Below are positions 95 through 12,838 of a stretch of 20,828 nt of DNA, piece after piece. The stretch comes from a virus. Position 1 is the first letter of the stretch. Every line of letters begins with the position of its first letter. The stretch covers positions 1 through 20,828 of IMG/VR virus record IMGVR_UViG_3300025889_001159, one strand, 5' to 3'. Under the pieces are notes generated by a model. That model did not search any database. It was not told where the DNA came from and saw only the letters and a program-made list of their open reading frames with translations. A program made the translations under genes and the position numbers.

Positions 95-709
95 ATGGCT
101 GCTGGTGATACGTCAGTTTCTATTTGCGCGGATGCCCTAATTCTCTTGGGCGCCAAGCCAATATCGTCCTTTAATGATGGCACCGACGAAGCCAATACCG
201 CAGACCGCCTGTATCCCAACGTGCGCGATTCTGCGCTGATGATGTACCCCTGGACGTTTGCCTACAAAAAGGTTTTGTTGTCCAGGTTAATTACTACCCC
301 AGTTACCGAGTGGAAGTACGAGTATCAATTGCCGGGTGACCGCCTGGGCAACCCTCGGGCTATGTACACCACTTCCGACGCATCTGCGCGGCCATCAAAA
401 GAGTGGGAGGTGCAGGGCGACAAGCTGCTGACAAACGAGACTACGGTTTACGTTGACTACCCGTATCAAACGCCCGAGTTCGCCATGCCGCAGTCATTCG
501 TGCAGTTTATGAAATATATGATGGCATGGCACTTGGCTTACCCCATTACTGAACAGCAAGACAAGGCTGCGTATTGGCAGAGCATTGCTGTTGGTTCGCC
601 CGGCGAAAACTTCCGAGGCGGCTACTTCCGGGTTGCTGCCAACATCGACTCGCAGGGTCAACCCAACCAAGTTATTGAAGACTACAGCCTGGTGGCCGCG
701 AGGTACTGA
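95..709 (+). CDS. Tail tube protein A (T7 gp11-like, adaptor/gatekeeper)
   Basis: The 204-aa product resembles podovirus tail tubular protein A, which forms the ring joining the portal to the tail nozzle in T7-type virions. The length is close to T7 gp11 (196 aa). Family-typical features are the N-terminal ADALILLGA helix followed by aromatic-rich PWTFAYKK and a later YEYQLPGD stretch. The ATG at 95 is preceded by AGAGG with good spacing. The stop overlaps the start of the next gene (TGATG), so the two tail-tube genes are probably translated together. The identification rests on overall resemblance and on the neighbouring gp12-like gene. Confidence 0.85.
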   Translation: MAAGDTSVSICADALILLGAKPISSFNDGTDEANTADRLYPNVRDSALMMYPWTFAYKKVLLSRLITTPVTEWKYEYQLPGDRLGNPRAMYTTSDASARPSKEWEVQGDKLLTNETTVYVDYPYQTPEFAMPQSFVQFMKYMMAWHLAYPITEQQDKAAYWQSIAVGSPGENFRGGYFRVAANIDSQGQPNQVIEDYSLVAARY

Positions 710-2919
710 TGGCTCGGTTTGTAGACTTCCAAACCAACTTCTCGACCGGGGAACTAGACCCCCTGTTGAGGGCGCGCGTTGACCTGCAAACCTACAACAA
801 TGCGCTGGCCAAAGCAACGAATGTTCTGATTCAGCCGCAGGGTGGGCTGCGCCGCCGCCCTGGCTCCAAGCACATACTTGAGTTGCCCAACACGGGCACC
901 GAGTCTGCTGGCAATGGTGTGCGGATGGTGCCGTTCCAGTTCAGCGTTGACGATAGTTATATGCTGGTCTTTGTGCCCACCAGGATGTACGTCATCAAAG
1001 ACGGCAGCGTAATTGCCGATATCAACGGTACCGGCAACAACTACCTGACTACCACTATCACGGCGTCAATGCTGGATGATATGTGCTGGACGCAATCTGC
1101 CGATACATTGATTGCGGTGCATCCTGATTTGCAGCCTGTGCAGATTCAGCGCGACAGCGACTCTGCCTGGACGATTGCAAGCATCACGTTTGACAGCATC
1201 CCCAAGTATGCGTTTGAGTTGGATAGCCACACTTCGCAGGGCGCTGACATTACGCCGTCTGCGGTGAGCGGCAACATAACCATTGACGCCACCAGCACCA
1301 ACCACACCAGCGGCACCGCCCAGGGCGGCACGGTATCCACGATTACCCTGAAGTCTGCGTCCAGCAGCACAGACAATATCTACGAGAGTATGTTTGTCGA
1401 AATCACCGGCGGCACCGGCGCTGGCCAATCAAGGATTATTGATAGTTATGTCGGCTCGACCAAAGTGGCTACAGTTCACCCCAACTGGGATACTGCCCCT
1501 GATGCTACTAGCGTTTACTCGGTTGCTTCGTTTAAGGAAGCGGCGGTTAACCAGTACATCAACGCATCACCGCAGGGCCGCGCCCGCATCATTCGATATG
1601 TGAGCGATACCCAGGTTGAGTGCGTTACCGAATACCCGTTCTTTAACACCGACCAAATTACTGCTGGTCGCTGGGAAATCGAGCATGGTTATGTAGATGT
1701 GTGGTCTAGCACCAAGGGCTGGCCGCGCACGGTTACGTTCCATGAGGGGCGTCTATACTTTGGCGGCAGCAAGTCGCGGCCATCTACTATTTGGGGCAGC
1801 AAGATTGGCTTGTTCTTTGACTTTGTGCCAACCGAGTCATTGGACGATGACGCTATTTCTGCCACCCTGGACACCAACGAATTGAACGTAATTACGGATA
1901 TCATTAGTTCGCGTGACTTCCAAGTGTTTACGACCGGCGGCGAGTTCTATGTGCCGCAGCAGGGCACCGACCCTGTAACGCCCCTGACGTTTATTTTTAA
2001 GGCCGTAAGCCGCAATGGCATCAAGCCTGGAACCAGGGTGCAGTCGGTGGATTCGGGGTCTGTGTATATCCAGCGCCAGGGCAAGTCGCTCAACGAGTTC
2101 GTGTTCTCTGACACCCAGCTTACATACATCACGCAGCGCATATCCCTGCTTTCGGGCCATTTGCTCAAGTCGCCGAACCGCATTGCCCTGCGTAAAGCCA
2201 GCAGCACCGAAGACGCCGACCTGCTCATGATGACCAACACGACCGATGGCAGCATGGCTGTGTTCAGCATTATGCGTAGCCAGCAGGTTACCAGCCCGTC
2301 GGAGTTCACCACCGATGGCGAATACCTGGATGTTTCGGTTGATGTGACTGACATATACACCACCGTCAAGCGCACATTCGACTCGGTGGACAGGTACTTT
2401 GTCGAGTTATTTCAAAACACCCTGTATACCGATTGTGCGTTTACGGGCGGCGCGGCGGCGAGTGCCAGTAGCCTGCCGCACGAGGGCGAGACTCTGAATG
2501 TCATTTGTGACGGAGTGCCCCAGGGCGACGAGGTGGTTTCTAGCGGCTCGATTACATTTGACCGTGCCAGCGCCACCAGCTACGAGGTTGGCTTGCCAAT
2601 GACCGTATATGCCAAGACCATGCCTGCCGAAATCAGTATCGGCACGGGCACCAGGATTGGTTTTAAAAAGCGCATCGTCCAGGTAAACGTGGTGGTGAAC
2701 GATAGCCAGCACCTGAATATCAACGCGCAACCTATTCCATTCCGAAACTTTGACACCGATATGCTGGATGAGCCGGTGCCCGAGTTCACCGGCATTAAAC
2801 GCCTGGACGGGGTTCGTGGTTATTCAAGAGATGCTGCTATTGAGATTACGCAGACCCTGCCGCTCAAACTGACGCTGTTGGGTCTTGAGTACAAGATAGC
2901 GGTACACCAAGGGTCATAA
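709..2919 (+). CDS. Tail tube protein B (T7 gp12-like, tail nozzle)
   Basis: The 736-aa product has the hallmarks of podovirus tail tubular protein B, the nozzle through which DNA leaves the virion; T7 gp12 is 794 aa. The N-terminus carries the family-like FQTNFSTGELDPLLRARVDL segment, then the QGGLRRRPGSKHI stretch near residues 44-56. A central KGWPRTVTFHEGRLYFGGS motif, near residues 340-358, is typical of the beta-propeller part. The start codon overlaps the stop of tail tube A by one base. The downstream gene starts two bases after this stop, so this is one transcription unit. No signal peptide or membrane segment is visible, as expected for a capsid-external structural protein. Confidence 0.88.
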   Translation: MARFVDFQTNFSTGELDPLLRARVDLQTYNNALAKATNVLIQPQGGLRRRPGSKHILELPNTGTESAGNGVRMVPFQFSVDDSYMLVFVPTRMYVIKDGSVIADINGTGNNYLTTTITASMLDDMCWTQSADTLIAVHPDLQPVQIQRDSDSAWTIASITFDSIPKYAFELDSHTSQGADITPSAVSGNITIDATSTNHTSGTAQGGTVSTITLKSASSSTDNIYESMFVEITGGTGAGQSRIIDSYVGSTKVATVHPNWDTAPDATSVYSVASFKEAAVNQYINASPQGRARIIRYVSDTQVECVTEYPFFNTDQITAGRWEIEHGYVDVWSSTKGWPRTVTFHEGRLYFGGSKSRPSTIWGSKIGLFFDFVPTESLDDDAISATLDTNELNVITDIISSRDFQVFTTGGEFYVPQQGTDPVTPLTFIFKAVSRNGIKPGTRVQSVDSGSVYIQRQGKSLNEFVFSDTQLTYITQRISLLSGHLLKSPNRIALRKASSTEDADLLMMTNTTDGSMAVFSIMRSQQVTSPSEFTTDGEYLDVSVDVTDIYTTVKRTFDSVDRYFVELFQNTLYTDCAFTGGAAASASSLPHEGETLNVICDGVPQGDEVVSSGSITFDRASATSYEVGLPMTVYAKTMPAEISIGTGTRIGFKKRIVQVNVVVNDSQHLNINAQPIPFRNFDTDMLDEPVPEFTGIKRLDGVRGYSRDAAIEITQTLPLKLTLLGLEYKIAVHQGS

Positions 2920-2921
2920 TC

Positions 2922-3521
2922 ATGGTAACACCAGCAACAATATACGCAGGCGCCCAACTGGTTGGTGGGGTCGGGGAATACTACGCCGCCAAAGCAGAAG
3001 CCATTAACACGCAGACAGCCAACCTGCTGCGAGCAAATGACGTATTGTTTGCCACCGAAATCCAAGCGATGCAGGGCGAGGAATACGCTCGGATACAAGC
3101 TGGTCGGACAATACAGCAGGCCAATATCACCGCAATGAACCAGCGGATGATTGGCAATAAACTACTGCGCGACCACCGGCAATCTGTTGCAAGCGCAAGG
3201 GCCAGGGCTGCTGCCAATGGCGTGGCGTTCAACGAGGGCAGCGTTGCCGCATTTGAAAATGAAAACCTACGCCAAACCATGATGGATGTTGGTGTTTCAG
3301 ACTTTAACGCCCTGACCGCCCTGGTGTTTGGCTTTGAGGATGCTACCGCCCTGTTGCAATCGCAAGAGCGCCAGGCAACTCTAAGCCTGTATTCAGCCCA
3401 ATCGCAGGCACAGCAGTACCGCATGGCCGGAGAGGCGGCTCGTACTACCGGGCGGCTCAAGGGTGGCCAGGCATTGCTGGAGTCGGGATACAAGTTCTAT
3501 CAGTTGTATCCACAGGCTTAA
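2922..3521 (+). CDS. Small internal virion protein (T7 gp14-like)
   Basis: The 199-aa protein is almost the same length as T7 gp14 (196 aa), and lies at the matching place right after tail tube B. It opens with a hydrophobic ATIYAGAQLVGGVGEYYAAKAEA segment (residues 4-26). A long alpha-helical, Gln- and Ala-rich body follows. The segment DHRQSVASARARAAANGV (about residues 87-104) resembles the conserved core of this family. In T7, gp14 leaves the head and enters the outer membrane to form part of the DNA-ejection channel. The gene begins only 2 nt after the previous stop, with AAGGG just upstream. The assignment comes from order, length and composition and has not been tested by alignment. 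Confidence 0.75.
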   Translation: MVTPATIYAGAQLVGGVGEYYAAKAEAINTQTANLLRANDVLFATEIQAMQGEEYARIQAGRTIQQANITAMNQRMIGNKLLRDHRQSVASARARAAANGVAFNEGSVAAFENENLRQTMMDVGVSDFNALTALVFGFEDATALLQSQERQATLSLYSAQSQAQQYRMAGEAARTTGRLKGGQALLESGYKFYQLYPQA

Positions 3522-3537
3522 AAGAAAGAGCGCATAG

Positions 3538-5328
3538 ATGGCAACAAGAATTACAGACGCAGGCAGAGTCCAGCTAATTGCACCTGGCAGCAGCCCCATG
3601 CGCCCGGCTGAATATCGCGGTGTGGATTACCGTGGCTACACAGCAGAGGCGCAGGCAGCCGGTGCCCTGGGTGATGTGATTAGCCGCATGAGTTCGTTCG
3701 CTGCCAAGCTGGGCGAGCGCGCTGTTGGCCAGCAGGCGCAAGAAGATTATTTTGCCAAGTTCCAGGTTACGGCTGCTGATATTCGCCACGCCAAAGACGG
3801 CGACCCCGATAATCTTTTGATTGGCAATGACGCGACGATATATGGCCGCACCCTTAAGAAGATGCGGGCCATGCAGTTGTCGGGGATGTTCGAGACTGAG
3901 ATTAAAAGTCTTGCAGCCAAGTTAAAAACAGACGCTGAGAATGGTTTGCCAACTGCAAACGTGGCCTCTCAATTGGAAGCGGCTATTGCGTCGAACGTGG
4001 ATATTCTGTCAAAGCAAGACCCAGAGGCGGCGGTTAAGTTGTATGCCGCCAGCAAAGGTTACGCATCTACAGCCATCAATTCAGCGTATGAATATGAAAT
4101 TAAGCGCAATAAAGAAAGGCGCGAGGCTGCTGTTACTTTGTCCAACGAGCAAGAGAATCCTGAATTAACCAGCATATTAAATGCCGGAATTACCACAGGC
4201 GCAGAGGGCACGATAAACAATATCTCGGTGCTGGACACCCGCAGAACGCTCCGGGCGCAGCAAGCGTTTGGCGCCAGCGGCCAGCAGCTTATGGATGAGA
4301 CTATCAAGGCAACTGATGCCCACATATTGGCGTCGGCGCAAGAATATGTCTCCCAGTATGTCAGCGCATCAGACAACCCGACAAAAGCGTTTCGAGATAT
4401 CCGCAACGGCACGACCGACAACGCTGCGGTGAATGCAATCCTGACCGGCGTTAATGCTTTTGATAACTCTGCCGCCCCCGCCTGGGCAACTGACATGGCA
4501 GCCAAGGTGCGCGATTCTGCCAAAAAGGCTTATATGGATTGGGCATACGAGCAAGACCAAATTGAGAAAGCAGACAAACGCGCAGCCGAACTGTACAAGG
4601 TTGACTTTACAGAGGCAATGGCTAATGGCGACAGGGCGGGGATGGAGCAGGCGCTGTACCAATTGAAGAACAGCAACCCTGAAGCGTATTTGAAAATGAA
4701 CGAGGATTATCAGGCTTGGTCAAACGGCGGGTCTTTGTTTTCTCGATTTGATAACCAAAGCATAGTTGAGATTCTTGACAGGAAATTCAACTCGCCATAC
4801 GGCGACCCTGTTACTCCTGATGATGTCTACCAGGTTCGCGGTCAACTGACCCAAGAGACTTTCCGCAGGTATCTCGGTATGGTTAAGTCATTCGACGATG
4901 ACCAGGTACGCAAGTTAAAAGAGTTGGCTGTTGCTAGGCTGGAGATGGTGCCTGGCCCGTTGGTCGGCTCCCAGGCAAGGGCCGTGAACGCCCGCAAAGA
5001 AAAGCAGTTGGCTGACCTGATTAACAAATACATGAGCGACAGAATCCGCGCAGCCCGCGACCCCAACTTTCAAATGCCTGGGCCATTCCAATGGTTGGAT
5101 GCTAATTTTGAGACAAGCACCGCCGCATCGGATGCACAAGCAAATGCCAGTTTGGTAGCCAAGGTGAATGGCCGCACATACAGGACTGAGGCTGCTTTCA
5201 CCGCGGCTATTAAAGAAGCGCAAAAAAGAAGTGATGCCGACCGTGTAACGCAGTTAACGGCAGAGTTGGGTGAATTAAGGGAAGCCATCAGGCTAAACCT
5301 GGTCGATGAAAAAGGCAACAAAAAATAA
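3538..5328 (+). CDS. Internal virion / DNA-ejection protein (T7 gp15-like position)
   Basis: The 596-aa, strongly alpha-helical protein is rich in Ala, Glu, Lys and Gln, with no signal peptide and no clear membrane segment. It follows the gp14-like gene as gene 15 does in T7, although T7 gp15 is longer (747 aa). The N-terminus has a Tyr/Gly-rich stretch (EYRGVDYRGYTAEAQ, residues 25-39), then helices likely to stack in the internal core or periplasmic tube. The start is set by a purine-rich AAGAAAGAG at 3522-3530, 7 nt before the ATG. The stop overlaps the next start (TAATG). The function is inferred from synteny; I see no catalytic motif. Confidence 0.68.
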   Translation: MATRITDAGRVQLIAPGSSPMRPAEYRGVDYRGYTAEAQAAGALGDVISRMSSFAAKLGERAVGQQAQEDYFAKFQVTAADIRHAKDGDPDNLLIGNDATIYGRTLKKMRAMQLSGMFETEIKSLAAKLKTDAENGLPTANVASQLEAAIASNVDILSKQDPEAAVKLYAASKGYASTAINSAYEYEIKRNKERREAAVTLSNEQENPELTSILNAGITTGAEGTINNISVLDTRRTLRAQQAFGASGQQLMDETIKATDAHILASAQEYVSQYVSASDNPTKAFRDIRNGTTDNAAVNAILTGVNAFDNSAAPAWATDMAAKVRDSAKKAYMDWAYEQDQIEKADKRAAELYKVDFTEAMANGDRAGMEQALYQLKNSNPEAYLKMNEDYQAWSNGGSLFSRFDNQSIVEILDRKFNSPYGDPVTPDDVYQVRGQLTQETFRRYLGMVKSFDDDQVRKLKELAVARLEMVPGPLVGSQARAVNARKEKQLADLINKYMSDRIRAARDPNFQMPGPFQWLDANFETSTAASDAQANASLVAKVNGRTYRTEAAFTAAIKEAQKRSDADRVTQLTAELGELREAIRLNLVDEKGNKK

Positions 5329-7514
5329 TGGACTACTTAGACGCCACCTACTTATCGTCCGAGGCTAACCGCGAAATTGGCCGCGGTGTCAGGTTTGACG
5401 TTGACCAAAGCGGCAAAGTCTTTGAGGTTGCCAACGAGCCTGAGGCTTTGCCAATGGAGGTCACGGCTGGCGAGCAAGAATCAAAATCGCTGGCTGAGTT
5501 TGCTAAGTCGGGGCTGGATGTTTACGCTGGTGGCCTCAAGGGTTTGGCTCAGGCTTGGGTGGGAATTGGTGGCGACTTGGAGCGCCTGGCTACTGGGCTG
5601 CGTGATGCTGCTATGGCTGGCCCCAACGAGTCTGCGTGGGATGCGTTCCTGATGGGGTTGGGCAAAGACAGCACGATGCTGTGGGATACCAATGAAGCCA
5701 AAGCGATATTGGATAAGTATTTGCCATACCAACCCATAACCGAGGCTGGCGCTGCAAAAGTGCCTGGCGAAGATGGTCGATATATGGGCGAGGGCATGGG
5801 CGAGTTTTTTGCGCCTGGTGGTCAACTTAAGACGGGAATGCAAGTTATCCGAGGTATTCGCAAAGGTTTGCAAAAAATACCCGATATGAGGACTGTTCCA
5901 GTTATTCCATTCCCTGAGTACGGCGAAGAACTTAGAGCGGCTCTTGGCCTTTCAAATCAGGGTGTTGATGCTGGTAAAATAAACAAAGGTGGTTTATATG
6001 AAACAAGACAAGATGGCGACTTCTACAGAGTCGGCAAAACAAGCGATGCTGGAAGCAGACCAAGCGATGCTGGAAGCAGACAGGGTGCTGGAGTCGATGG
6101 GGTATACCCAGGAACAGCTATCGAAGTTAGAACTCCCGAGCGACGACAGTCTGTATACGGCAATCAAGAACGCCCAATTGACGAGGCAGTTCAAGATAGA
6201 CTAACGCCGCAAAATAATCCGGCATTGCGCGTTGCCAATGAATATAACCAGGCTACATTTAACGCGCCCTATAACTACGATATTAAGATTGAACCATCTA
6301 GCCTGAGAAAACAATCGGCAGTTGGTGTTGCATACGAATTGGCAGCAAAACGCACACCTGGGTATGCTGACGCTGTATTTAACGCATACAAGGCAGACCC
6401 TGAACTTGGCCCCATCATTGAGAACATGGGGATTAAGTCTTATGACGAACTGGTGCAGGCTTCGTACAAGCAGATGGAAAAGGAAACCATCGACCAATTT
6501 AGGAAGCTGCCGATATCCCTGTCATACCACCAGGGGCCAGGAACTTACTTAGACAGCAAAGAAATGCTGCGTGATGTGCATTTGCATAACCATATGTACG
6601 TCTACCAGGGCGGCGACCCGCATGAGTTCCTTAATGTCGTTGACCCTGAAACCGGCCTTAACAGCAATGAGATATTCCGCGCCGTGCATGATTACTTTGG
6701 CCATGCAATCAAAGGCAACCAGTTTGGCCCGAAGGGAGAAGAAGTGGCGTGGGCTTCTCACGCCCAAATGTATTCGCCTCTTGCCAGGTTGGCTATGACC
6801 GCAGAGACTCGCGGGCAAAACAGCTTCGTAAATTACACCCCCATCAACGCGGGACTTATTAAGAAAATGGAGTCTGTGCGCGTCAGGCAAAAAGAGTTAA
6901 TTCGCGCCGGCAAGAGGGACGATGCAGAAAAACTTGCTGAAACTTTAAGAGGCCTTGGTGGCCAATGGCAATACGCAGAGCAGGCCTCGGTATTGTTGCC
7001 GCCTGAAATGACCCGTATGGACTACGCCGGCGGTATACCCGATTACTTGCGTAAGTTGCAGACCCCCGAAGGCCTTACTATGGAAGCCGAGCATTACAGT
7101 CGAGTGCAGGGGCTTGAGCAATTAGACCCAAGCCAATATGGCACCGGCGCGCCAGGCAGGGAGGCTGAACGGCTTGAGTCTGCTGGGGCGCAAAAGCCCA
7201 GGTCTTTTTTCTATGAGGCTGGGGCACAGCCCGAGCCGGAAGTAGTATCAATATCAAAAGGCAAATATAGGGGAAAACTTGAGGGCTTGTATGACTTTGA
7301 TGCTGACCCATTGGGCTTAAACAAAATTGCAAGCGTTGCCAATACGAATAGCGTTATGTCCAAAATAAACGCTGGCGTTCGCAATGAGTCATCCAGGATG
7401 AATGACTTGGAACGCATGATTTATGAGCGTGGATATCGCGGGTATGTCAGCGGAGAAAAAGGCAGCCGCCGGGCGGTTGTGTTTGAGCCAACCCAAGTTC
7501 AGGAAGTAAAATAA
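5328..7514 (+). CDS. Large virion-associated protein with conserved HDYFGH / ETRGQN domain
   Basis: The 728-aa protein lies in the ejection-protein block. Residues 1-220 form a helical N-terminal part. Residues about 224-292 are a Gly/Ser/Arg-rich linker with a tandem heptapeptide. Residues about 295-560 are a compact domain with H454-D455-Y456-F457-G458-H459, G470-E471-E472 and E493-T494-R495-G496-Q497-N498. The C-terminus has GYRGYVSGE and VVFEP, a style seen at the end of toxin- or polyvalent-type domains in phage proteins. I recall the HDYFGH...ETRGQN pattern recurring in phage virion proteins without an assigned function. The spaced His, Asp and Glu residues suggest a metal site or catalysis, which is inference. 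The start overlaps the previous stop (TAATG), and the linker also encodes a gene candidate in another frame (5998-6204). Confidence 0.72.
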   Translation: MDYLDATYLSSEANREIGRGVRFDVDQSGKVFEVANEPEALPMEVTAGEQESKSLAEFAKSGLDVYAGGLKGLAQAWVGIGGDLERLATGLRDAAMAGPNESAWDAFLMGLGKDSTMLWDTNEAKAILDKYLPYQPITEAGAAKVPGEDGRYMGEGMGEFFAPGGQLKTGMQVIRGIRKGLQKIPDMRTVPVIPFPEYGEELRAALGLSNQGVDAGKINKGGLYETRQDGDFYRVGKTSDAGSRPSDAGSRQGAGVDGVYPGTAIEVRTPERRQSVYGNQERPIDEAVQDRLTPQNNPALRVANEYNQATFNAPYNYDIKIEPSSLRKQSAVGVAYELAAKRTPGYADAVFNAYKADPELGPIIENMGIKSYDELVQASYKQMEKETIDQFRKLPISLSYHQGPGTYLDSKEMLRDVHLHNHMYVYQGGDPHEFLNVVDPETGLNSNEIFRAVHDYFGHAIKGNQFGPKGEEVAWASHAQMYSPLARLAMTAETRGQNSFVNYTPINAGLIKKMESVRVRQKELIRAGKRDDAEKLAETLRGLGGQWQYAEQASVLLPPEMTRMDYAGGIPDYLRKLQTPEGLTMEAEHYSRVQGLEQLDPSQYGTGAPGREAERLESAGAQKPRSFFYEAGAQPEPEVVSISKGKYRGKLEGLYDFDADPLGLNKIASVANTNSVMSKINAGVRNESSRMNDLERMIYERGYRGYVSGEKGSRRAVVFEPTQVQEVK
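5985..5992 (+). promoter_or_regulatory. Ribosome binding site of the nested gene
   Basis: AAAGGTGG lies inside the coding region of the 728-aa virion protein, 5 nt before the ATG at 5998. It is one of the better Shine-Dalgarno matches in the window and has no reason to exist for the host frame, so it supports an internal start in the +1 frame. Confidence 0.5.
5998..6204 (+). CDS. Nested small gene in +1 frame (68 aa, unknown, helical)
   Basis: A 68-codon frame (start MKQDKMATSTESAKQ, end TRQFKID) lies wholly inside the 728-aa virion protein gene, shifted by +1. Support: AAAGGTGG 5 nt upstream of the ATG; codon choice like the true genes (GAC, AAG, CTG, CAG, GAG frequent); and an acidic, soluble-helix composition with an exact heptad pair QAMLEAD-QAMLEAD. 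In the same stretch the host frame is low-complexity and has a cluster of AGA codons. The same 21-bp duplication therefore builds a coiled-coil-like heptad here but a Gly/Ser linker in the host frame. I do not recognise the product. It could instead be a fossil of a separate gene fused into the host frame, or chance. Confidence 0.5.
   Translation: MKQDKMATSTESAKQAMLEADQAMLEADRVLESMGYTQEQLSKLELPSDDSLYTAIKNAQLTRQFKID
6040..6081 (+). repeat. Perfect 21-bp tandem duplication
   Basis: Two identical 21-bp copies lie at 6040-6060 and 6061-6081, beginning CAAGCGATGCTGG. The unit is seven codons, so neither reading frame is broken: the host frame gains SDAGSRP/SDAGSRQ and the nested frame gains QAMLEAD twice. 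It looks like a recent replication-slippage event. Confidence 0.9.
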
Positions 7515-7582
7515 TGAAAAGTATTGCAACTGGCGCTGGTTCTGCGACAATAACGCAAGACGGGAAAACTGATGGCAATTGA
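7514..7582 (+). CDS. Possible 22-aa leader/coupling ORF
   Basis: The ATG at 7514 overlaps the stop of the 728-aa protein gene (TAATG), and its 22 codons (beginning MKSIATGAGSATITQDG) end at 7582, ten bases past the start of the 1073-aa gene at 7572. It spans the only sizeable gap (57 nt) between two large virion genes. This geometry would let ribosomes travel from one gene to the next. There is no recognisable product, and it may be only a chance open frame. Confidence 0.25.
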   Translation: MKSIATGAGSATITQDGKTDGN

Positions 7583-10804: not shown

Positions 10805-12838
10805 ATGGCCGTCCCAATTTCTAATGTAACCCGCCGCGTGGTGTTTGCCGCCAGCGGTGTGGGGCCGTATGCGTTCACGTTTGAGATTCTTGCTCAGACC
10901 GATATCGCCGTTTACGAGGATGACACCCTGCTGACGTTGACCACCGACTACACGGTGACCATTAACGCCAACGGCACGGGTTCGATTACCCTGGTGTCCA
11001 GCCCCACCGGGTCACAGATATCAATTATCGGTGCCAGGGCGATTGAGCGTACCTCTGACTTTGTGACGGGTGGCGACTTCTTTGCCAACACACTCAACAC
11101 CGAACTGGATAGCCTAACTATCTTTGCCCAGCAAAACAGCGAGGCTGTGGCCCGCGCATTGTCTGCGCCGGAGACTGACCCGACCACGGTGAACATGACT
11201 TTGCCGAGGGCATCGGTGCGAGCCAACAAGACCCTGGCTTTTGACAGCAACGGCGACCCAGTTATCGGCGAGGTGATTGGCGACAACCGTGGCGATTGGG
11301 CTGCTGGCACCGCGTACAACAAGCGTGATATTGTCAAAGACACCAGCAACAACAACGTATATTTGGCAAACACGGCGCACACTTCTAGTGGCTCCCAGCC
11401 AATCAGCACCAATGCCGATGCAGCCAAATGGGATTTGTTGCTAGATGCTGCGTCAGCCGATGCAGCACAAGCGGCAGCGGAAGCCGCCCAGGCTGCGGCA
11501 GAGGCTGCTGAATCCAATGCAGAAGATTGGGCAACCAAGGTAGATGGTATTGTCGATTCAACTGACTATTCGGCCAAAGCATGGTCTATTGGTGGAACCG
11601 GCGTAACCGATACGGCCAGCCGTGGCGCTGCAAAAGAATGGGCGACCGAAACATCGGGTACGGTTGACGGCACCGAGTATTCATCCAAAGAATATGCACA
11701 GGGCACTCAGGCTGGTACTGGCGGCTCGGCGAAAGATTGGGCGATAGAAACAAGCACCAATGTCGATGGCGTTGACTATTCGTCAAAAGAGTATGCGGTA
11801 GGTACTCAAACGCGAGGCACCACCGGCTCATCCAAAGATTGGGCTACATATACCGGCGGCACCGTTAATGCCAGCGAATATTCTGCCAAAGAGTACGCGG
11901 TTGGCACAACGGCGACAGACGGGTCTGCAAAAGAGTGGGCAACCACTACTGGCGCTGCGGTGGCGGCTTCTGAATACTCGGCAAAAGAATATGCCCAGGG
12001 CACAACTGCAACTGGTGGCTCATCCAAACAATGGGCAACAACCACAGGCGCAGCAGTTAGCGGTGGTGAATATTCATCGAAAGAGTATGCTATTGGCACC
12101 ACAGTTGCTGCTGGCTCGGCAAAAGATTGGGCTACGATTACTGGCAACCTAGTCGATGCAACCGAATACTCTGCCAAGGAATACGCCAGCGGTGACCTGA
12201 CTGCAACTGGCGGCTCTGCCAAGGCTTGGGCAGAAGATGCCTCCAGCCCTGATGGCACCACAACCAAAAGCGCCAAGACCTGGGCGGCAGAGTCGGCCTC
12301 ATCTGCAAGCGATGCTCAAACCGCCCAGGCTGCCGCTGAAGCTGCCCTGGCCTCATTCAACGCAACATATCTTGGGGCGCAGGCAAGCGACCCAAGCGTG
12401 GACAATGAGGGTGACCCGGTAACGGCTGGCGATTGGTACTTCAATACCAGCAGCAATATCAGCCGTATCTACAACGGCAGCACCTGGTCGAATGTATCGC
12501 TTGACCCAGCCATTGTGGTGGCCAAGACCAGCAGCACGGGCGCGGCGGTTCTGCCGGTTGGCAGCACGGCCCAGCGTGACGGCTCACCCGTCCAGGGCTA
12601 TCTGCGGTTCAACTCAGACGATGGCGCGTTCGAGGGTTATAACGGGAGCGCCTGGGCACCAGTAGGTGGCGGGGCAACAGGTGGCGGCAGCGATGCGGTG
12701 TTCGTCGAGAACGACCAAACCGTGACCACCAACTACACAATCCCAGCAACCAAGAACGCGATGTCCACCGGGCCGGTAACCATTGACTCAGGCGTCACGG
12801 TCACGGTGTCCACCGGCTCACGCTACGTTGTAATTTAA
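10805..12838 (+). CDS. Tail fibre protein with T7 gp17-type N-terminus and eight-repeat shaft
   Basis: The 677-aa fibre has four parts. Residues 1-160 match the T7-type tail-fibre attachment domain (opening VPISNVTRRVVFAASGVGPY, with YAFTFEIL and TVTINANGTGSITL). Residues about 165-212 look like a small beta carbohydrate-binding or chitinase-A-like segment (GDWAAGTAYNKRDIV). Residues about 213-240 are an Ala/Glu coiled coil. Residues about 239-497 are eight repeats of 30-38 aa with a K-x-W-A ... Y-S-A-K-E-Y-A consensus. The C-terminus (FVENDQTVTTNYTIPATKNA then GPVTIDSGVTVTV) is a tag that recurs at the ends of phage fibre proteins. AAGGA lies 8 nt before the ATG. It likely trimerises and anchors or presents the adhesins encoded next. 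Confidence 0.88.
   Translation: MAVPISNVTRRVVFAASGVGPYAFTFEILAQTDIAVYEDDTLLTLTTDYTVTINANGTGSITLVSSPTGSQISIIGARAIERTSDFVTGGDFFANTLNTELDSLTIFAQQNSEAVARALSAPETDPTTVNMTLPRASVRANKTLAFDSNGDPVIGEVIGDNRGDWAAGTAYNKRDIVKDTSNNNVYLANTAHTSSGSQPISTNADAAKWDLLLDAASADAAQAAAEAAQAAAEAAESNAEDWATKVDGIVDSTDYSAKAWSIGGTGVTDTASRGAAKEWATETSGTVDGTEYSSKEYAQGTQAGTGGSAKDWAIETSTNVDGVDYSSKEYAVGTQTRGTTGSSKDWATYTGGTVNASEYSAKEYAVGTTATDGSAKEWATTTGAAVAASEYSAKEYAQGTTATGGSSKQWATTTGAAVSGGEYSSKEYAIGTTVAAGSAKDWATITGNLVDATEYSAKEYASGDLTATGGSAKAWAEDASSPDGTTTKSAKTWAAESASSASDAQTAQAAAEAALASFNATYLGAQASDPSVDNEGDPVTAGDWYFNTSSNISRIYNGSTWSNVSLDPAIVVAKTSSTGAAVLPVGSTAQRDGSPVQGYLRFNSDDGAFEGYNGSAWAPVGGGATGGGSDAVFVENDQTVTTNYTIPATKNAMSTGPVTIDSGVTVTVSTGSRYVVI
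11519..12297 (+). repeat. Eight in-frame repeats of the tail-fibre shaft
   Basis: Units of about 90-115 bp each encode K/E-x-WA-x(7-9)-V-x(3)-EYSAKEYA-x-GT-x(4)-GGSA. The middle units are the most alike (for example KEWATTTGAAV and KQWATTTGAAV), while the first and last are degenerate. In the DNA, stretches such as GGCTCGGC(G/A)AAAGATTGGGC recur, so unit number could change by recombination. The period fits a trimeric shaft with regularly spaced Trp and Tyr layers, which is inference. Confidence 0.85.

Follow-up and report, generated by a model that had tools for sequence, protein, structure and literature searches.

The window, by which we mean the whole stretch of DNA analysed here, comprises 20,828 bases of virus DNA from IMG/VR record IMGVR_UViG_3300025889_001159. 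On its plus strand a tail protein gene (709-2919), an internal virion protein gene (2922-3521) and a gene for a 596-aa protein without a family match (3538-5328) lie upstream of a gene encoding a 728-aa protein (5328-7514). The latter, hereafter the host gene, carries a nested gene in a second frame, and the next gene after it encodes a 1073-aa protein. The host frame encodes a domain with a conserved HDYFGH motif (6207-7052, plus strand; the motif is at residues 454-459 and the outer limits of the domain are an estimate) and a C-terminal ADP-ribosyltransferase (ART)-like domain (7053-7508, plus strand; residues ~576-727, with H589, Y629 and E720). The nested gene and both of these domains lie in an exchangeable cassette (5871-7521, plus strand), taken as the interval between the stretches that the window shares with a related contig, L003.

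The nested reading frame in the window

The nested ORF starts with an ATG at 5998 and ends with a TAA at 6202-6204 (5998-6204 on the plus strand, stop included). It has 68 sense codons in the +1 frame relative to the host gene, and a Shine-Dalgarno (SD) sequence, AAAGGTGG (5985-5992, plus strand), lies 5 nt ahead of the ATG. Coordinates, frame and SD are all as the first-pass annotation of this DNA had given them, and its description of the codon use as ordinary also holds up: the per-codon log-odds score is +0.17 for the nested frame versus -0.05 for the host frame over identical bases, and none of 177 other, overlapping +1 windows from eight other genes of this phage scores as high. The exact heptad pair that it had noticed in the product (QAMLEAD twice) originates from a perfect 21-nt tandem repeat (6040-6081, plus strand; copies 6040-6060 and 6061-6081), which reads SDAGSRP/SDAGSRQ in the host frame. 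The nested proteins of three related contigs (L004-L006) are seven residues shorter at this site, and we infer that the lineage of the window gained a duplication preserving both frames.

The product had further been characterized as helical and acidic. The predicted structure of the window product does have helices (residues 9-33, 38-42 and 51-62), although at low confidence (mean pLDDT 65), and its pI is 4.6; the charge, however, is not conserved across groups of relatives, where pI varies from 4.6 to 11.6 (22 nested proteins). None of the 22 nested products tested contains a hydrophobic stretch (maximum 19-residue hydropathy 0.53), which argues against a role in membrane lysis. Cysteine is absent from 20 of the 22, and the 68-aa window product has none. 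The window taken alone makes a weak case: when its host gene is recoded synonymously, 45% of trials yield a +1 ORF of 50 aa or more, and the presence of the ORF is not beyond chance. It is the comparative evidence that decides.

Recurrence and selection in related loci

Three contigs, L004-L006, have 58-60% identity to the host cassette. Their nested ORF preserves the +1 frame, the start, a GGAG SD, the place of the stop and the core GYT.E.LSK..L...D.LYTA; in L005 and L006 the start was assigned by homology to the ATG near the SD, which is not the first in-frame ATG. A second group (L010-L018 and L033) also has a nested ORF, with a TAA immediately 5' of the ATG where the sequence covers it. 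A wider scan for host relatives confirmed at least 303 contigs, of which 80 were kept. In the further groups C (MKDDKKA...), E, F, G and H the nested sequence differs, while its place and frame are unchanged and an SD-like motif and a roughly similar size are retained; nested ORFs range from 50 to 68 aa, and charge and most of the sequence differ among groups. Profile comparison links groups A and B (E ~1e-7), C and E (~1e-3) and G and H (~1e-6), with the between-group similarity due in part to common host-frame motifs. The host frame had been called most featureless over this segment, yet it is not so throughout: Y.GT....R and S.YG are kept there in all seven aligned group A/B proteins.

A +1 ORF of at least 50 aa beginning with ATG is present at the nested place in 57 of 62 distinct loci, versus 7.6 expected from synonymous recoding. 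No locus (0/62) has a comparable ORF in the +2 frame, and matched control windows downstream have a +1 ORF in 22 of 179 cases. The 62 loci exclude duplicates and 12 further loci without an anchor or with less than 330 nt of open host frame upstream; the 57 include two that we judge spurious, L026 and L065 (ORF of 53 aa). A nested-protein profile recognises 52 of the 62 at the nested place, to which L037 was added by eye; many of these 52 had been used to build the profiles and match by construction. Of 58 loci (ORFs of at least 44 aa, with L026, L059 and L065 included), 53 carry an SD-like motif before their first ATG, compared with 141 of 935 out-of-frame control ATGs (P = 9e-35). With these three loci excluded, 34 of 55 have an in-frame stop 0-5 codons 5' of the nested ATG, which favours independent initiation, and only two of 55 have a host-frame ATG near the nested stop.

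The first-pass annotation had proposed comparing substitutions in both frames among relatives. In a +1 overlap the third codon position of the host is the second position of the nested frame. In 21 disjoint pairs picked by hand, differences at host positions 1/2/3 number 290/187/221 in the overlap (1209 codons) versus 704/389/2198 downstream (5292 codons). This shift away from the host third position has a pooled P of 5e-46, an optimistic figure since pairs within a group have common ancestry. Individually, 16 of the 21 pairs are below 0.05; the other five, two from group F and three from group G, range from P = 0.056 to 0.81, and each of these two groups when pooled gives P below 0.006. A divergence-filtered run on all pairs per group agrees with this result. 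For group B, the rate of third-position differences drops from 0.304 to 0.015 in the overlap. In group F, whose nested products are very basic (pI ~11), the host third position is still the most variable one in the overlap (0.32 versus 0.49 downstream), and the codon-position signal is weakest in groups F and G. We also simulated partners evolving under host constraint alone, again with hand-picked disjoint pairs. In 19 of 20 pairs, those of group F among them, the observed nested-protein identity is above what this host-only simulation gives (P at most 0.005). Pair L068/L096 of group G is the one exception, with P = 0.17 on identity and 0.003 with openness.

Given that relatives keep the start, the SD and the open frame, together with a nested-frame substitution pattern, we regard it as close to certain that the ORF is a real overprinted gene under protein-level selection, a judgement made from sequence comparison with no expression data behind it. 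Overprinting by a new gene, one of two origins suggested at first pass, is supported by these observations.

The other suggested origin, capture of a small gene between two formerly separate proteins, was considered and gains no support: the searches produced no convincing free-standing small gene, and no split large protein was seen. With tblastn, the nested proteins of the window, L006, L049 and L090 found no copy in 50,697 phage records, L006 giving one match at E = 8. Group nested profiles run over six frames of the collected loci gave E <0.05 at the nested place only, and a looser profile run returned scraps of 5-8.5 bits elsewhere. Scans of viral contigs depend on short peptides that are conserved, and more distant copies may escape them. 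Such a scan found nothing with the window nested protein and, with A1, three contigs that were all previously found; the group H query A8 and the group C query A9 yielded 44 loci, many of them on contigs known beforehand from the host search. In this search by nested sequence only, 43 of the 44 loci lie inside a host gene in the same frame relation, with the host frame open across the nested ORF; the 44th, L122, has no host and is a marginal 26-residue match. A scan of genome contigs with the host alignment found none. The nested product has no match in Pfam and only weak ones in PHROGs (E 0.0095 or worse), and no confident match in PHROGs, Pfam or phage records.

Some relatives of the host lack the nested gene. 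L058 and L064-L066 (the last three on contigs of 150-168 kb) retain the HDYFGH domain and a GTA.EHR segment, and have 2-5 stops in the +1 frame; our reading is that they are relatives outside the nested clade. L101 has intact host and effector domains and no nested ORF; L059, L062, L063 and L077 have ORFs that no nested profile recognises at E <1e-3. The giant proteins L019, L024 and L025 and mycobacteriophage L026 match only the HDYFGH part and have no nested gene in the stretches examined. The first-pass annotation had held that relatives keeping the host frame with +1 stops or no start would refute a nested gene. Such relatives do occur (L058, L064-L066 and L101), but because selection inside the clade is direct they restrict the nested gene to a large clade and do not refute it. 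Our inference is that overprinting by the nested gene came later, within this clade, upon an older host frame.

The short hosts of L058, L064-L066 are stand-alone versions of the host domain (L058:1601-2878, L064:4914-6167, L065:4878-6155 and L066:4878-6155). They lack most of the ART part, including the strands that bear His and Tyr, but a vestige of the profile's final section is left.

The host protein and its exchangeable cassette

The predicted model of the host domains has a mean pLDDT of 90. With Foldseek, the best match of the C-terminus is AcrIF11 (6kyf; probability 1.00, E 9.5e-3, that is, above 0.001), and MbcT follows with probability 0.94. VIA gives Z 6.5 over 115 residues for AcrIF11 and 6.9 for MbcT; unrelated helical hairpins score higher (up to 7.6), and both values fall short of the tool's trust level. 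Sequence-family searches gave no confident match for the ART part. We nevertheless interpret the C-terminus as resembling an ADP-ribosyltransferase, a match of predicted structure only, in which the scores alone are no proof of fold, because H589 and Y629 fall in the expected strands and E720 follows a late strand. A study of polyvalent-protein ARTs describes a clade, Tox-ART-HYD2, that has His in its first strand, Tyr in its second and an acidic residue after a late strand (PMC5512222). The His and Tyr of the window host are placed as in the clade: H589 is in model strand 290-298, in a column at least 90% conserved, and Y629 is in model strand 333-337. The candidate for the clade's Asp in strand 5 is E720, just past model strand 422-425. 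The Tyr is kept in the rows reaching it in groups A, B, C, E, G and H and is often Phe in group F. In contrast to the clade so described, the hosts here differ in their third catalytic residue (E in the window and in group C, D in L004/L006, N in group B) and have an additional HDYFGH domain; the word 'overlapping' is absent from the main text of PMC5512222. In the case of an AcrIF11 homologue, activity is reported to be abolished by mutating H20/Y46 or D146/E147 (PMC12421852).

VIA also aligns the ART-like part with residues 1421-1602 of chain B of the cyanophage A4 pre-ejectosome (PDB 9k3a; Z 5.7, 120 residues), a hint that ejectosome proteins may bear ART-like domains. The HDYFGH domain is common to giant phage proteins and phrog_3170 and is present in many mycobacteriophages too; its HDY.GH, GEE and ETRGQNS motifs are strongly conserved, and no confident solved relative of it was found.

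A terminase large subunit gene lies ~0.2-2.3 kb 3' of the host gene in groups B, C, G and H (representatives L012, L049, L071 and L090). In group F the host gene is 3' of terminase (L083) and 5' of portal (L063, L083), and in both L006 and the window a tail gene lies 5' of it, accompanied in the window by the gene for an internal virion protein. This neighbourhood fits a protein that is delivered or part of the virion, which makes such a role plausible from context, but it does not show it.

Two contigs, L002 and L003, are 96.5% identical to the window over window positions 328-5870, and identity resumes at 7522 (97.8% in L003). Between these shared stretches they have a different C-terminus and no match to the nested profile. 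As identity breaks at 5870 and resumes at 7522, we infer that the small gene has been exchanged together with the effector cassette in one event. The cassette of L003 (L003:5544-7333, opposite window 5871-7521) is wholly different and matches phrog_7348, annotated as endolysin; flanked by stretches 96.5% and 97.8% identical, it marks a polymorphic effector slot.

Among loci of known ART state the nested gene is present in 51 of 56 with ART (L037 by eye) and recognised in none of four without. This tally omits L085 and L086, which stop short of the ART; the window and L037 were entered as nested by hand, and the window also matches a profile. ART-less loci are few, and three of the four represent one clade; one of them, L065, has the 53-aa ORF judged spurious. 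Five ART-bearing loci (L059, L062, L063, L077 and L101) have no recognised nested gene, which is therefore not obligatory.

A possible partner of the effector

How might the two products work together? We propose that ribosomes start at the nested gene's own SD and ATG within the host mRNA, and that each message would yield the effector and a small, soluble, mostly helical protein; both steps are inferred. The small protein would then act in the producing cell as a dedicated partner of the effector. It might serve packaging as a chaperone or loader, or it might be an inhibitor, in which case the ART would be held silent until delivery. The partner role is suggested by the message, cassette and distribution that the nested gene shares with the effector. 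Our confidence is limited because the overlap itself would force much of this linkage: an overprinted gene cannot easily leave, and its sole residence in the host gene could merely follow from that. We favour, with moderate confidence and without expression or interaction data, an overprinted gene tied to an ART-ending effector whose product is the partner of that effector. That the nested protein is a dedicated chaperone, loader or inhibitor is in itself a tentative inference, made in the absence of interaction data. It is doubtful whether the whole amounts to a delivered phage ADP-ribosyltransferase with its own antidote or loader in the second frame, a toxin-partner module in which the fusion is one of reading frames. 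Inhibition of the ART specifically we hold to be rather unlikely, neutralisation being inferred from linkage and co-occurrence only.

A real possibility remains that the nested protein is an independent anti-host or virion factor, merely carried along with no functional tie to the effector. Overprinted genes are often functionally unrelated to the host gene, and the strong sequence differences between groups as well as the five ART-bearing loci without a recognised copy are compatible with such a factor. Against this, the gene keeps one location and one frame across groups, there is no convincing free-standing copy (43 of the 44 group C and H matches are inside the host) and it is swapped along with the cassette. 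It is also conceivable, although improbable in our view, that the act of translation rather than its product matters, nested translation tuning that of the downstream host message through ribosome traffic or coupling. Start and SD are indeed more reliably conserved between groups than the peptide; but amino-acid selection along the ORF goes beyond openness, and the rarity of a host-frame ATG near the nested stop (2/55) leaves no general ATG re-initiation site.

Programmed frameshifting from the host into the +1 frame, giving a truncated host protein with a different tail, would account for the same +1 direction in the groups examined. What the loci carry is instead an initiation signature, with a stop 0-5 codons before the ATG in 34/55 and an SD-like motif in 53/58, and we consider a frameshift very improbable. 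Least credible of all is a chance ORF that stays open because the host protein is conserved or because an RNA element lies there. Such an ORF is easily had in the window (45% of recodings), and five group F/G pairs alone lack a significant shift; yet the recurrence in 57 of 62 loci is far from the expected 7.6, simulated host-only evolution loses the nested identity, nested codon use in the window is above all 177 other +1 windows, and an RNA element would not shift codon periodicity toward the nested frame, as observed. The overprinted gene with a product that partners the effector remains our best explanation.

To our knowledge, well-supported fully nested phage genes are few. Lambda Rz1 in Rz and phiX174 E in D are nested phage lysis genes with membrane or lipoprotein signals. 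The gene described here is similarly small, fully inside another gene in a different frame and equipped with its own start; unlike Rz1 and E, its products have no hydrophobic stretch and mostly (20/22) no Cys, and the Rz/Rz1-type criterion is not met. In the MbcT-MbcA toxin-antitoxin pair the partner genes sit side by side. MbcT is structurally similar to the enzyme domain here and likewise has a dedicated protein partner (PDB 6fkg), whereas the candidate partner in our case is inside the enzyme gene and its inhibition is only inferred. In a further system, an out-of-frame homing insertion in a phage gene encodes an endonuclease that is proposed to be translated separately (PMC11855218). As in that system, the other-frame ORF lies within a phage gene that remains open in its own frame; unlike that endonuclease, the nested ORF here is of 50-68 aa, has no Pfam match and sits in a cassette of effector domains. 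Phage genes nested out of frame are of a known kind; among the literature matches listed, no paper concerns this nested gene or any nested gene in such an effector.

The present case adds to environmental phages a small-protein family unmatched in the libraries searched, with a codon-level signature of selection across several distinct phage groups, and same-strand +1 overlaps of this type can be detected by comparing substitution periodicity. It suggests that effector cassettes may hide a second gene that annotation may miss. Should the product restrain or load the effector, it would offer a direct handle on how a host-modifying enzyme is stored safely before delivery; should the toxin-partner module be real, effector and partner would be hard to separate by recombination and would be exchanged as one cassette.

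Elsewhere in the window, a tail-fibre-like gene (10805-12838, 677 aa) has a weak match, below the family's cut-off, to a carbohydrate-binding module (PF02839), and contains imperfect internal repeats at 11672-12231 with 72-76% identity.
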